Below, in pieces: positions 13,501-63,260 of a DNA stretch of 64,000 nt (the first letter of the stretch is position 1; each line of letters begins with the position of its first letter). The stretch comes from Halorubrum salsamenti (GTDB lineage: Archaea > Halobacteriota > Halobacteria > Halobacteriales > Haloferacaceae). Position numbers and translations under genes: made by a program. The notes below the pieces were generated by a model. The model made no database searches, was not told the origin of the DNA, and saw nothing but the letters and a program-made list of their open reading frames with translations. The DNA lies in NCBI RefSeq assembly GCF_007671685.1, contig NZ_VCNL01000001.1, positions 496,001-560,000 on the forward strand. The letters run 5' to 3'.

Positions 13501-13650
13501 CACCTCGTTAACAGCGCCTTAATATCGTCCTAACTGCTCCACGGACTGGGAGAATTCCCCGCAAAGCCGCACCTCGACGCCGAAACCGCCTCTCCGTCGA
13601 TCCGGTTAGTGAGATGAACAGTCATCAAGTGATGAACATATAAGTAACGA

Positions 13651-13687
13651 TATACTTATTGCGGTTAACCTTGGATTACCATCCGCA
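13651..13687 (+). promoter_or_regulatory. MAHK-type promoter and leader, copy A
   Basis: TATACTTATTGCGG (13651-13664) followed by TTA, GGATTA and CCGCA directly before the ATG. With TATA at 13651-13658 the transcript would start about 7 nt before the ATG. From 13652 into codon 8 the sequence is 52/58 identical to copy B at the other Tat gene (complement of about 51949-52006), far beyond chance for unrelated genes. Confidence 0.65.
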
Positions 13688-13906
13688 ATGGCACACAAGC
13701 TGGCACACAACGGCGGTAGCGACCGCTCTACGACGTCATCTGACGATGGCCGGAAACGGCGACTTACCCGGCGGCAGTACGTTAAGCTCGGCAGCGCAAC
13801 TGCAGCGAGTCTCCTGATCGGCGGGGCGTCGGTCAGCGGGTCGACGGGCGCGACGACGGACACCGGCGAGCTCTTCTGGACCGACTTCAGCGACGGATCG
13901 CTATGA
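13688..13906 (+). CDS. Detached Tat signal peptide ORF of the following pectate-lyase-fold protein
   Basis: A 72-aa product: MAHKLAH N-terminus, polar linker, then a twin-arginine signal (LTRRQYVKLG followed by the hydrophobic SATAASLLIGGASV) and a short mature stretch ending FSDGSL. It stops at a TGA that overlaps the ATG of the next ORF (ATGA, 13903-13906). Related secreted proteins normally carry the Tat signal on the same polypeptide. This therefore looks like a -1 frameshift between signal and enzyme, either a natural mutation, a sequencing error or programmed slippage. Its start-codon region is fully complementary to the loop of the putative RNA at 30004-30078. Confidence 0.75.
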   Translation: MAHKLAHNGGSDRSTTSSDDGRKRRLTRRQYVKLGSATAASLLIGGASVSGSTGATTDTGELFWTDFSDGSL

Positions 13907-16611
13907 CGGTCCTGAACGTCCAAGATTTCGGCGCGGTCGGGGACGGCTCGACCGACGACACCGCCGCGATCCAAGACGCGATCGACGCGGCGGGCGACGG
14001 CGACGAGGTGTACGTCCCCGCGACCGGGAGCTCCTACCTCGTGACGGGATGGGACAGCATCATCGACGTCGATTCGTCGAACGACGGCGTCCGGCTCTAC
14101 GGCAACGGCAGGGAGAGCCGGATCGAGTACGCCGGCGGTAACGACGGACGGAACGTGTTCATGGTCAGCGTCGACCCCGGAGACGAGGGCCTCGAAGGTT
14201 TCGTGCTGGAGCACCTGACGCTCGACGGGGGACTCGACAGCGTCGACGGCGACCCGAACGTCGCCTCGGCGGTCCAGGTTCGGAGCCCGGAATCCGGCGC
14301 CGAGGGCAACGTGGACATCACGGTCCGCGACGTGCGGGCGACGAACTGCTACGGCAACGGCATCGACGTCGGCGCCGCGGGAACGACGGTCGTGAACTGC
14401 ACGGCCGAGAACAACCGACAGCACGGGTTCGGGATGGAGACCAGCTACGACCCGTTCCAGGACCCGCCCGTCCGGTTCGAGCGCTGTCTCTCTCGTGGAA
14501 ACGGCTTCGGTGGGGGGTACTACGGCATGGACCTGTCGGGGGGAAAGGCCGTGGCCGAGGACTGCGTGCTCCGCGACAACGAGGGCGCGGGCGCGACCAA
14601 GTGCTCGGTCGGGAGCGAACACATGGTGTACCGGCGCTGTCGGCTGGCGAGCAACGAGGGTCACACCTTCCAGAACACGAGCGGAGAGGGCGCGACCGTC
14701 GTCTTCGACCGGATCGTCGCCGAGGACAACGTGGACTGCATGCGGCTGACGGAGGACGGAGTCTACCGGGTCCCGGCGGGCTCGGAGCTCGTGTTCGTCG
14801 ACAACGGGCCGGACGTTCGCGGCGGGCTGTACCTCACCCACGAGTCGGTGTTGGAGGCCGGCGACGCGACGCTCTGGATCAACGGCCAGACCGGCGGGGC
14901 CGGCCTGCGCGCCAGCTCTGACGGGAGCGGGAGCCGCGTCGGGACCTACTACCACGCGAACAACGAGGACGGGGCGGTCTCGAACGATCAGCACATCTCG
15001 TTCGGGACGGTCGCGAGCGATCTGAAGACCGACCTCGACGCCGTTCCGACCGCCGATCAGGTCGGCGCGTGGACCGGCGCCAAAAGTGACGCCGGTAGTG
15101 ACGACGGGACGACCGACGACGGGTCGACCGACGACTCGCCGTTCGAGGCCTGGACCCCGCGGTGGGACGCCGACGCCAGCGACTGGGGCGTCGTCGCGGG
15201 CGACGAGTACGAGGGCGGGCACGCGCTCCGGTACGACCACGACGGCACGGACGTGGCCCGGCGGGCGATCTCCTGGGACGCCGTCGGCACCCCCTCGGAC
15301 GTCGAGGTCCTGGACAGGGTCCGGGTTCCGTCGTTCGACGCCGACGGGGACCGCGGGTACCACGCCCGGGTGCACCTCCGGTCGTCGTACGCCGGCGGGG
15401 AGGAGCTCGGCTACTGGATCGAACTGGAGGACGCCGAGGACGGGTTCAGGCTGGCCAAGTACTCCGCCGACGGGATGGAGACGCTGGCACGGTTCGGCAC
15501 GCCCGCAGAGGGGACGTTCTTCTACCGCCGGTTCCGTGCCGAGGGCGACCGCCTCCGGGTCAAAGTGTGGGAGGCGACCGAGTCCGAACCCGACGGCTGG
15601 GACGTCGACACCACCGACGCGGACCACGCCGACGGGTGGGTCGGGCTCGGCTCCTTCGACCCGGGCGCGTTCCAGACGGACGTGCTCGGCGTCGCGACCG
15701 ACGGCGGAACGGTCCAACTCGAGTCCGACGCTGCGCAGCCGACGGTGTCCTGGCGGGGTCCCGTCGACGGGGACACGGTCGGCGGGAGCGTTCCGGTGCG
15801 GATCGAGGCCGCGGACGGCGCCGGGTCCAGCGAGGGCGTGACCGTCGAGTACCGAGCCGCCGGCGGCTCCTGGACGGCGACGACCTACGACGCCGAGAGC
15901 GACACCCACGAGGCGACGTGGGACTCCACCGACGTCGCCGCGGGCGACGTCTCGCTCGAGGCGCGCGCGACGAGCGACGACGGGTCGACCGCCGGCGCGA
16001 CGGTCTCGGTGACCGTCGACAACGACCCCGAGGTCGTCTCGCTGGAGGCCCGGGACCTGACGGCCGACGGAGCGACGCTCGCCGGCGACCTCCGGGACCT
16101 CGGCGGAGATGATGAGGTCCGCGTGCGCTTCGAACTGCGCGCCGCGGACACGGACGCCTGGACGGCCGTGGGCGGCGAGACGCTCGGTTCGCCGTCGGAA
16201 TTCACGCACATCGTGTCGGGACTCAACCCGGGCGGCGCGTACGAGTTCCGCGCCGTCGCCGACGGGGACAACGCGACCGTTTCCGGGGAGGCCGTCCCGT
16301 TCGCGACGCGCGAGGACGCGGACGGGAACGACGCACCGACGGTCGATCGGTTCGAGGTCACCGATCGGAGCGGGAACAAGTGGACGCGGTTCGACGTCGA
16401 CTGGGCGGTGACCGACGGCGACGGCGACCTCGACGCGGTCGTCTCGACGCTCAAACGCAACGGCCGAACGGTCGCCGCGGAGAGCACGACCGTGTCGGGG
16501 GACTCGGCGAGCTACACTCACGTACTCCGCGTTCGCGGGAAGGTCGACGCCGTCCACCTCTGCGTGAACGACACGTCGAACGCGACGGCGATGCGGAAGC
16601 GAGATATCTAA
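13903..16611 (+). CDS. Secreted pectate-lyase-fold multidomain protein, lacking its own signal peptide
   Basis: 902 aa. Residues 1-30 contain the Pectate_lyase_3 hallmark VQDFGAVGDGSTDDTAAIQDA, which opens a right-handed beta-helix to about residue 400. Then come a DDGTTDDGSTDD linker, a laminin-G-like domain of about 190 residues, an Ig-like domain (VSWRGPVDGDTVGGSVPV) and fibronectin-III-like domains to the end. Such proteins bind or cleave acidic polysaccharide at the cell surface. No signal peptide exists in this frame; it sits in the overlapping upstream ORF (13688-13906). Without a frame change the enzyme would stay inside. Translation could be coupled through the ATGA overlap, but that would not attach the signal. 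Catalytic residues are not identifiable. Confidence 0.85.
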   Translation: MTVLNVQDFGAVGDGSTDDTAAIQDAIDAAGDGDEVYVPATGSSYLVTGWDSIIDVDSSNDGVRLYGNGRESRIEYAGGNDGRNVFMVSVDPGDEGLEGFVLEHLTLDGGLDSVDGDPNVASAVQVRSPESGAEGNVDITVRDVRATNCYGNGIDVGAAGTTVVNCTAENNRQHGFGMETSYDPFQDPPVRFERCLSRGNGFGGGYYGMDLSGGKAVAEDCVLRDNEGAGATKCSVGSEHMVYRRCRLASNEGHTFQNTSGEGATVVFDRIVAEDNVDCMRLTEDGVYRVPAGSELVFVDNGPDVRGGLYLTHESVLEAGDATLWINGQTGGAGLRASSDGSGSRVGTYYHANNEDGAVSNDQHISFGTVASDLKTDLDAVPTADQVGAWTGAKSDAGSDDGTTDDGSTDDSPFEAWTPRWDADASDWGVVAGDEYEGGHALRYDHDGTDVARRAISWDAVGTPSDVEVLDRVRVPSFDADGDRGYHARVHLRSSYAGGEELGYWIELEDAEDGFRLAKYSADGMETLARFGTPAEGTFFYRRFRAEGDRLRVKVWEATESEPDGWDVDTTDADHADGWVGLGSFDPGAFQTDVLGVATDGGTVQLESDAAQPTVSWRGPVDGDTVGGSVPVRIEAADGAGSSEGVTVEYRAAGGSWTATTYDAESDTHEATWDSTDVAAGDVSLEARATSDDGSTAGATVSVTVDNDPEVVSLEARDLTADGATLAGDLRDLGGDDEVRVRFELRAADTDAWTAVGGETLGSPSEFTHIVSGLNPGGAYEFRAVADGDNATVSGEAVPFATREDADGNDAPTVDRFEVTDRSGNKWTRFDVDWAVTDGDGDLDAVVSTLKRNGRTVAAESTTVSGDSASYTHVLRVRGKVDAVHLCVNDTSNATAMRKRDI

Positions 16612-30003: not shown

Positions 30004-30078
30004 AAAAAGGGACCCGGACGTTGCAAAACACAGGTGCTGGCACACAAGCTGGTTTGCGGTTTTGCGACCGGTGTCCCT
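30004..30078 (-). ncRNA. Putative small hairpin RNA, antisense to MAHK start regions
   Basis: On the minus strand: TATA-like TTTAATAT (complement of 30101-30108), about 27 nt before AGGGACACCGG. That sequence is the 5' arm of an 18-bp stem (6+4+2+6 with small bulges) closing at GTCCCT, followed at once by TTTTT (30004-30008). The loop (about 29 nt) contains CCAGCTTGTGTGCCA (30038-30052), an exact complement of TGGCACACAAGCTGG at the starts of the genes at 13688 and 51970, and over 12 nt of the gene at 62232. Promoter, stem and T-tract are all read directly from the sequence; the function as a trans-acting antisense RNA is inference. It could instead be only a glmS terminator. Confidence 0.55.
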
Positions 30079-30100
30079 ACCCCTTCTTCGTTGGCTAGTG

Positions 30101-30108
30101 ATATTAAA
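30101..30108 (-). promoter_or_regulatory. TATA-like box for the small RNA candidate
   Basis: TTTAATAT on the minus strand, 22 bp after the glmS stop codon and 23 bp before the predicted RNA start. It would give the RNA its own promoter rather than depending on glmS readthrough. Confidence 0.45.
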
Positions 30109-51535: not shown

Positions 51536-51970
51536 TTACCGTCCGAACGCCTCCCCGTCGAGCGAGACCTCGGCGTCACCGTCGACGGTGACGTCGTGGA
51601 GTTCGCCGCGGAACCGGTAGCCGCGGTCGTCGCTCGTGACCGCGCCCTCCGCGGTGGACCCCGAGATGTGGCCCGTGACCCGGCTCGTTTCATCGTCCGC
51701 GACGAGTTCCCCGCCGACGGTCACCTCGTACGTGGACGGGGTCCCCGACCCGCGGATCCGGATCCGTCGTTCCGAGTCGTCGACGTCGTCCGCCGACGCC
51801 GCGACGGTCCCGTTCGTCCGACCGGTAAGCGTCGCGAGCGTCGCGATCGCCGCCCCGCTGAGGCGGGCGTATCCCCGGCGCGTGACGCCGGTGGATCCGG
51901 ACTCGTCGCGACCGTTATCAGGAGGTTCTCCCCCCGTCGACTGCAGCCTGTGTGCCAGCTTGTGTGCCAT
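51536..51970 (-). CDS. Small Tat-secreted protein, MAHK-type start
   Basis: 144 aa. Starts MAHKLAH, then polar, then a twin-arginine signal (TRRGYARLSGAAIATLATL) and a mature domain of about 90 residues. That domain has the beta pattern RIRIRGSGTPSTYEVTVGGE, SGSTAEGAVTSDDRGYRF and LHDVTVDGDAEVSLDGE, which I recognise as the C-terminal domain often fused to haloarchaeal secreted pectate-lyase-like proteins. Here it stands alone. Its start region is identical over 27 nt (CCGCA through codon 8) to that of 13688, and the 15-nt start-codon stretch (complement of 51955-51969) pairs perfectly with the RNA loop at 30038-30052. Confidence 0.82.
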   Translation of the reverse strand: MAHKLAHRLQSTGGEPPDNGRDESGSTGVTRRGYARLSGAAIATLATLTGRTNGTVAASADDVDDSERRIRIRGSGTPSTYEVTVGGELVADDETSRVTGHISGSTAEGAVTSDDRGYRFRGELHDVTVDGDAEVSLDGEAFGR

Positions 51971-51993
51971 TGCGGCCGTTAATCCTATGCTAA

Positions 51994-52006
51994 CCGCAAT
52001 AAGTAT
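51994..52006 (-). promoter_or_regulatory. MAHK-type promoter element, copy B
   Basis: ATACTTATTGCGG on the minus strand, 24 bp before the start codon of the small Tat gene. Matches copy A (13652-13664) exactly. A TATA box here predicts a leader of about six nucleotides. Confidence 0.6.
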
Positions 52007-52103
52007 TCGGTTTTTGATACATCCGGGGAAAAATGAATATCCGGTCAGATGAGAGGTGTCTGCGTCGGGATTCGACCGCGATAAACCGACTGACCGCGTT
52101 CAG

Positions 52104-62231: not shown

Positions 62232-62243
62232 ATGGCACACAAG
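62207..62243 (+). promoter_or_regulatory. MAHK-type leader and start region, copy C
   Basis: GCGGTTA at 62209-62215, ATATTA, ACGGCT, then ATGGCACACAAG (62232-62243). It matches copies A and B in the order of blocks, with 3 nt fewer before the ATG. TGGCACACAAGC (62233-62244) is complementary to the RNA loop over 12 nt. Confidence 0.5.
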
Positions 62244-63260
62244 CCTCTGGGGGAGACCGCCGTGCAGATGCCGGCCGAGACGCCGAGTCGGAACGACTAC
62301 GAGCGGACGATCGCCGACGTCGACCTTCCGCCGACGGTACAGACGTTCGCGGAGCGGTACGATCGGGTCCTCGGCGAACGCGACGTGTTCCTCTGGAAAT
62401 GGATCCATAACCTCTTCGACGAGTTCACGCTGTCGTCGGTCCCCGCCGGCGCGAAAGAGGAGGTGTTCGAATCGAAGACGCTCCTGACGATCCTCGTTAC
62501 GGTCCTCGACGATCTCGCCGAGCGGAACGGCGAGAGAGCGACGTTCGACGTCGCGCGTCGGATCCCGTTTCGGACGGCTTCGACCGCTGACTCGGCGCAG
62601 TCGGACAGCGAGCCGACTCGGGACGACGTCGACGCGGCCGTGATCGATTTCCTCGCCGATCTCTGGACCGAGATCGAGACCTCGATCGCGGCCGCACCGC
62701 GGTACGACGAGTTCGTTGACGTCTTCGAGTACGACTTCCGCCAGACGTGTAACGCCATGGAGTACTCCCGGCTCTTGAACCACAACATGTCGATGGCGAA
62801 CCGGACGGAGGCGGAACGGTACGACGCGTATAACATGACCGTGTTCCCTTACGCGTGTATCGATCTCATGCACTCCCCGTCGTTCGACCGCGGGGAGCTC
62901 GGTGCGCTCCGGAGCCTCCTCTGTGAGCTCCAACAGATGGCCCGAATCGGCAACTGGATCACGACGTGGGAACGAGAGCTGGCGGAAGGAGACGTCAGTT
63001 CCGGCGTGGTCGTCTGCGCGCTTCGTCGAGGAGTTATCACTCCCGAAGAGGTGACCGGCACCGACGAGACTGACGTCGAGCGCCTCGTCGAGCGGATCAG
63101 AACGAACGGGATCGAGTCCGAGTTCGTCCGGGAGTGGGAGATCCGCAATCAGACCGTTCGGAAACGGACCGCGGAGATCCGCAGCGTCGACTGCGAAGCC
63201 GTCGTCGACGGGATCCGTACGGTCATGAACCACCACCTCGCGAGTGAAGGGAGCAAGTGA
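62232..63260 (+). CDS. Class I terpene-synthase-like protein (isoprenoid synthase fold)
   Basis: 342 aa, all helical. TLLTILVTVLDDLAERNGE places a DDxxE motif at residues 93-97. GNWITTWERELAEGD provides N241-x3-T245-x3-E249, the NSE triad of class I terpene cyclases. Spacing of 148 residues and overall length match bacterial and fungal class I terpene synthases. A hydrophobic DLMHSP stretch (about 211-216) lies between. The start used is the second in-frame ATG, MAHKPLGETAV, because it matches the MAHK leader of other genes; the 14-residue extension from 62190 is unlikely. Substrate would be a prenyl diphosphate, perhaps FPP or GGPP. Family membership is inferred from motifs only; I know no characterised haloarchaeal example. 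Confidence 0.6.
   Translation: MAHKPLGETAVQMPAETPSRNDYERTIADVDLPPTVQTFAERYDRVLGERDVFLWKWIHNLFDEFTLSSVPAGAKEEVFESKTLLTILVTVLDDLAERNGERATFDVARRIPFRTASTADSAQSDSEPTRDDVDAAVIDFLADLWTEIETSIAAAPRYDEFVDVFEYDFRQTCNAMEYSRLLNHNMSMANRTEAERYDAYNMTVFPYACIDLMHSPSFDRGELGALRSLLCELQQMARIGNWITTWERELAEGDVSSGVVVCALRRGVITPEEVTGTDETDVERLVERIRTNGIESEFVREWEIRNQTVRKRTAEIRSVDCEAVVDGIRTVMNHHLASEGSK

Follow-up and report, generated by a model that had tools for sequence, protein, structure and literature searches.

Organisation of the hairpin locus

The DNA analysed here, referred to as the window, is a stretch of 64,000 nucleotides from Halorubrum salsamenti, in which positions 359-63260 form a large surface-polysaccharide cluster with genes for epimerases, nucleotidyltransferases, a polysaccharide flippase-like protein, a UDP-sugar dehydrogenase and glmS. 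A compact gene occupies the minus strand at 30004-30108, where a TATA box is followed after about 24 bp by a hairpin of about 71 nt and then by a T-run (Table 1). The stem consists of the pairs AGGGAC/GTCCCT, CCGG/CCGG, CG/CG and CAAAAC/GTTTTG, and the loop is antisense to ATGGCACACAAGCTGG starts. The initial annotation had described TTTAATAT (complement of 30101-30108), the stem, the T-run and CCAGCTTGTGTGCCA in the loop, and every one of these elements was confirmed in the sequence. Rfam covariance models gave no match over the hairpin even at E values up to 1, and one sub-threshold Rfam match was located outside it.

Table 1. Positions of the hairpin gene and of its predicted targets in the window
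Feature	Positions	Strand	Basis
Promoter block ATATAAgTAACGATA.ACTTATTGCGGTTA...GATTAcC.., ~50 bp, common to targets	13638..13687	+	many genomes
Target 1, start of 72-aa Tat-type leader ORF (13688-13906)	13688..13703	+	15/15 loop pairs; start and promoter conserved in other genomes
902-aa pectate-lyase-like beta-helix protein	13903..16611	+	Pfam PF12708, 2e-13; start overlaps leader-ORF stop by 4 nt (ATGA)
T-run, likely terminator	30004..30008	-	T-rich 3' flank in most homologs
Hairpin, putative sRNA, ~71 nt	30008..30078	-	covarying stem pairs, 23 aligned sequences
Loop seed CCAGCTTGTGTGCCA, antisense to target starts	30038..30052	-	near-invariant homolog loop; pairs with target starts
TATA box of the putative sRNA gene, TTTAATAT	30101..30108 (complement)	-	hexamer conserved upstream of stem in homologs
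Target 2, start of 144-aa Tat-type protein (ORF 51536-51970)	51955..51970	-	15/15 loop pairs
Same promoter block before target 2	51971..52020	-	83% match to target 1 region
Target 3 (weaker), start of 342-aa terpene-synthase-like protein (ORF 62232-63260)	62232..62244	+	12/15 loop pairs

Gene starts complementary to the loop

The 15-mer TGGCACACAAGCTGG occurs at 13689 and 30038 on the plus strand and at 51955-51969 on the minus strand, with its first 12 nt again at 62233 on the plus strand. These three exact copies are the only ones in the 3.67 Mb genome and all of them fall inside the window; two are bases 2-16 of gene starts, and the third forms the hairpin loop, where it is antisense for a minus-strand RNA. 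When up to three mismatches were allowed, the window held 5 matches to the 15-mer, as against 0.33 expected from shuffles. The sequence search thereby confirmed the earlier claim that the 15-mer lies at the gene starts 13688 and 51970 and its first 12 nt at 62232, and the second pairing register proposed at the same time was recovered as a 12-nt form in two targets. A fourth member, ATGGCACGCAAGCTGG, begins a 915-aa ORF about 65 kb beyond the window. The protein of target 3 matched Pfam Terpene_syn_C_2 at 5.4e-5, just under its cutoff; its proposed place in the regulon held, as the gene belongs to the target set of several genera. The description of the targets as unlinked stood only loosely, since most of them are situated within or close to the same polysaccharide clusters.

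Across genomes, the start type ATGGCAC(A/G)CA(A/G)(A/G)CTGG, together with AT-rich upstream DNA and the shared promoter block, was found at four kinds of gene, namely Tat-type ORFs of 65-76 aa, Tat-type proteins of about 145-160 aa, Tat-type proteins of 480-1000 aa and terpene-synthase-like proteins. The sharing of a block of about 50 bp suggests that a common transcription factor acts on the targets besides the putative sRNA. In most genomes examined, the short Tat ORF overlaps the start of a beta-helix protein of 800-920 aa by 4 nt, so that blocking the short ORF would probably lower the translationally coupled beta-helix enzyme as well. The 72-aa Tat-type ORF ends in a conserved WTDFSxGxL-like motif, and no signal peptide is evident in the 902-aa beta-helix protein itself.

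The common start could have been conserved for the sake of the protein (MAHK or MARK), for example for N-terminal processing or export, with the resemblance to the loop being incidental. Most targets do have Tat-type N-termini, but codon use speaks for constraint on the nucleotides: codon 2 was GCA in every real target, even though the pattern used to collect targets fixed the neighbouring bases and left the variable base of codon 2 free, whereas GCA made up 2% of the alanine codons in the genes of the window and 4.5% in all regions fetched, and was found at second-codon alanine in 3 of 30 other genes. The terpene-synthase-like protein, moreover, has the same start with nothing suggesting secretion, and the CAC/CGC and AAG/AGG changes alter the protein and keep the pairing. 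Protein-level conservation was therefore rejected on codon use and is, in our judgement, extremely improbable as the explanation.

Distribution of the hairpin and its independence from glmS

The hairpin is present in more than 20 other haloarchaeal genomes. A search of 170 family genomes recovered it, with a loop of the same type, in additional Halorubrum genomes (H. aquaticum, H. kocurii, H. halophilum, H. amylolyticum, H. lipolyticum, sp. CSM-61 and G135) and, beyond this genus, in Halobellus rarus and two relatives, Halalkalirubrum salinum, SHRA6 and G005. A pattern scan combined with a covariance model extended it to further haloarchaeal families (G192, G242, G342/SHR40, two MAGs, G321 and G411). 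The loop is near-invariant among the homologs, an apparent invariance inflated by the fact that the loop motif itself served to find most members. The hairpin of G302 is doubtful and was left out of the support. Matches to the loop pattern in bacteria (Pseudoalteromonas, Mariprofundus and others) and in one viral contig had no stem and were taken as chance.

In H. salsamenti, as in most Halorubrum genomes, glmS and an epimerase gene flank the hairpin. As it follows glmS on the same strand and ends in Ts, it could be merely the transcription terminator of glmS, matching the 15-mer by coincidence. An intrinsic terminator of glmS would be expected at a fixed position behind that gene, but in nine genomes (G135, G005, G006, G007, G192, G242, G342, G426 and G427) the neighbours are other than glmS, usually other surface-sugar genes. 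A TATA box stands between glmS and the stem, and the hairpin co-occurs with the target starts, both of which speak against the terminator reading. Conservation outside the glmS context refuted that reading, to which we give next to no credence, and we take the hairpin to be an independent minus-strand gene, because in other genomes a TATA box of its own precedes it and the genes around it differ.

Stem structure and coding strand

As a single sequence, the hairpin folds unremarkably (z = -0.8), so its significance comes from comparative evidence rather than from single-sequence folding. Among 23 aligned members, 94% of the stem cells were paired, 7 of the 9 stem pairs had changes on both sides, and double-change cells numbered 26 as compared to 5.9 in shuffles. 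Sliding the pairing partner by one column cut the covariation score from 0.455 to 0.135, a large contrast even though fitting the alignment to the covariance model favours the structure. The strand was assigned from folding and from the position of the TATA box. With the seed held open, the fold energies of the 23 members summed to -487 kcal on the minus strand as against -421 on the plus strand; in 18 of 23 the minus hairpin was the more stable of the two, with a clear difference in most of the divergent members. A TATA-like hexamer was found 21-30 bp (mostly 22-25) upstream of the minus-strand stem in all 23 homologs examined, with a mean score of 6.1 on the hairpin strand vs 3.2 for the weaker counterparts on the plus strand. 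The polarity of the stem and the placing of the TATA box ruled out a plus-strand RNA or decoy. Two features of a trans-acting antisense sRNA were thus found here, a conserved RNA secondary structure (covariation and strand polarity) and, in an intergenic region, a promoter and likely terminator of its own (TATA box in the 23 homologs and T-rich 3' flank in most of them).

Alternatively, the 15-mer may be a protein-binding site, in DNA or RNA, at the target starts, the intergenic copy being an extra site or decoy. The conserved promoter block at the target starts makes a common regulator likely anyway. The intergenic copy, however, forms part of a loop whose stem covaries as a minus-strand RNA, has a TATA box in the antisense direction and is without the promoter block, and the changes in the targets preserve pairing with the loop. 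We consider a protein site quite improbable and an antisense RNA the better reading.

Co-occurrence of hairpin and target starts

In 391 haloarchaeal genomes, the strict target starts ATGGCACACAAGCTGG, ATGGCACGCAAGCTGG and ATGGCACACAGGCTGG occurred 32 times in 13 genomes, and all 32 occurrences were in hairpin-bearing genomes; none was found in the 372 hairpin-less haloarchaeal genomes. The Fisher value for this co-occurrence was 4e-20, a figure that ignores phylogeny and shared ancestry and treats genomes as independent, which they are not. The strict pairs span five genera, and covarying or additional pairs add the lineages of G006/G007, G192, G247/G215 and the MAGs G426 and G427. Orthologs of target 2 that align from residue 1 were present only in hairpin-bearing genomes. 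Likewise, orthologs of the terpene-synthase-like gene kept the site only where the hairpin exists; in hairpin-less close relatives, they have a similar promoter and start with ATGGTACACGAG, ATGATACACGAG, ATGTCACACGAG or ATGGCAAATAAG. The mean duplex energy at this start was -26.1 kcal in hairpin-bearing genomes vs -15.3 in hairpin-less genomes (p 0.0014). The terpene-synthase-like start of G135 pairs poorly.

No complementary hairpin was found in the genera g9 (G025, G027 and relatives) and g26 (G164, G165 and G167), where the starts of the related genes are conserved in another form, ATGGTAAGYGAACGG or ATGGCACGCGAAC(T/A)GG. The search may have missed a diverged sRNA in these groups; the hairpin candidates examined there look like coding sequence or like the target starts themselves. 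The ATGGCACRCARACTGG starts examined in g34 and family f4 seem to belong to unrelated genes preceded by GC-rich DNA.

Joint changes in loop and target starts

The initial annotation had proposed that loop and target starts should change together between relatives, and this was observed in three lineages: Halalkalirubrum salinum with archaeon SHRA6 (G006/G007), G192, and a family in which the hairpin was predicted from its target and then found. In G006/G007 the loop CAGTTTGTG faces the target AAACTGG, and in G192 the loop CAGCCTGTG faces ACAGGC in both targets; for the sites of these genomes, their own loop mostly ranked first or second. The strongest case is the prediction. G247 and G215 (family f8) have the target-like start ATGGCACGCAAACTGG, yet the hairpin was absent from the model scan, and it was sought because of that start. 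A hairpin with the loop CCAGTTCGCGTGCCA and a TATA-like box was found in both genomes, 12.5 kb from the target-like start (model 15.3 bits, E 0.11). Elsewhere in both genomes, the start ATGGCACGCGAACTGG, the exact complement of the CCAGTTCGCGTGCCA loop, heads a short ORF, and duplex energies favoured the genomes' own loop. In G411, a CACGA change is common to the loop and the terpene-synthase-like start, with one mismatch remaining.

Over 53 sites, two of which are unrelated starts, the pairing cells comprised 721 Watson-Crick, 42 wobble and 32 mismatched. Variation in the targets is mostly A-to-G or C-to-T, and pairing is kept by G.U. Loops differing by one wobble (G109 and G135) fitted their own targets no better than other loops did. 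A further mark of an antisense sRNA, conserved and co-varying complementarity to mRNAs encoded elsewhere, was thus present.

Proposed mechanism

Pairing between loop and targets is strongly supported by these comparisons, and the hairpin RNA is very probably a real, undescribed RNA switch. The hairpin, its strand, the complementarity, the co-occurrence and the co-variation are read from sequence; from these we infer transcription and the repressive sign. The stand-alone minus-strand gene would give an RNA of about 70 nt, essentially a single hairpin, whose large loop would expose 15-18 nt for pairing with the U-G of AUG and the next four codons. The loop would pair with positions +2 to +16 of a few mRNAs whose leaders are presumably short or absent. 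In 40 of 51 targets, counted by eye, there is a GC or GCA just before the AUG, through which the duplex can be lengthened if the A of AUG bulges out. As the duplex would cover the start codon, ribosomes could not initiate, and when the RNA is made, the secreted Tat-type proteins, the coupled beta-helix enzymes and the terpene-synthase-like protein would be expected to fall together. The targets could also be tied together at transcription through their shared promoter blocks.

It is likely that a trans-acting antisense sRNA covers the start codon and lowers translation of its targets. A translation block is the most likely outcome of pairing because the duplex would cover the place of initiation on short leaders. 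The same sRNA and pairing could instead activate or stabilise the mRNA, for example by shielding its 5' end from nuclease. The pairing evidence is silent on the sign, and sRNA154 of Methanosarcina is reported to stabilise some mRNAs and to block another (PMC5867862); a duplex on the start codon itself, with likely little leader for the ribosome to use, makes activation unlikely, though less so than the other alternatives. In its broader form, which we hold to be reasonably probable, the proposal of a translation block is that a widespread family of haloarchaeal sRNAs controls leaderless or near-leaderless mRNAs by loop-to-start-codon pairing. Pairing would then have dictated the first codons (MAHK/MARK) of unrelated proteins and, through ATGA-coupled leader ORFs, one seed would also control large secreted enzymes that lack their own signal peptide.

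Relation to known systems

A search of open-licence papers found no description of the hairpin element. The closest described mechanism is that of loop 2 of Methanosarcina mazei sRNA154 on glnA2 mRNA, in which an archaeal intergenic sRNA likewise masks a translation initiation region in trans by a structured loop (PMC5867862). However, sRNA154 masks the ribosome binding site and serves the nitrogen regulon, whereas the present loop, of unrelated sequence and from haloarchaea, would cover the start and first codons (PMC5867862). Haloferax volcanii s479 is also a haloarchaeal trans-acting sRNA with several targets, but it lies between a CRISPR locus and cas genes, its 3' end pairs with sites in the znuC1 transcript and transporters are affected; loop-to-start-codon pairing is not among the features given in the sections cited (PMC8155600). 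H. volcanii sRNA132 is similarly intergenic and tied to one operon, but, according to the portion of the report cited, it acts in the phosphate starvation response (PMC6560208). The CreA guide RNAs of CreTA are small haloarchaeal RNAs with short complementarity to a gene start region; they differ, as described in the cited excerpt, in having CRISPR-like repeats and in acting as transcriptional repressors with type I CRISPR-Cas (PMC8501985). CRISPR-like repeats were not found around the pairing segment, nor was an Rfam CRISPR repeat over the hairpin. A guide RNA of the CreA/CRISPR type was rejected, the flanks being covarying stem arms whose sequence changes between genera.

About 72% of the protein-coding transcripts of H. 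volcanii are leaderless, and short leaders are usual in haloarchaea (PMC4983044). How sRNAs control translation of such mostly leaderless haloarchaeal transcripts is, in the cited part of one report, still to be unravelled (PMC8155600). The present system would be a concrete, testable answer, and it offers a compact RNA with a defined seed, several targets in each genome and natural loop variants. Its likely role is to coordinate polysaccharide synthesis with secreted enzymes, and the N-terminal codons of unrelated proteins appear to be under constraint from a regulatory RNA.

For the G321 hairpin, the search turned up no full target. In G321 (L332) and G411 (L330), which belong to one genus, the loops hold two tandem antisense units, the complement of TTGGCACACGAACTGGCACGCGAACCGG, as though copied from the two repeats present in a target start.
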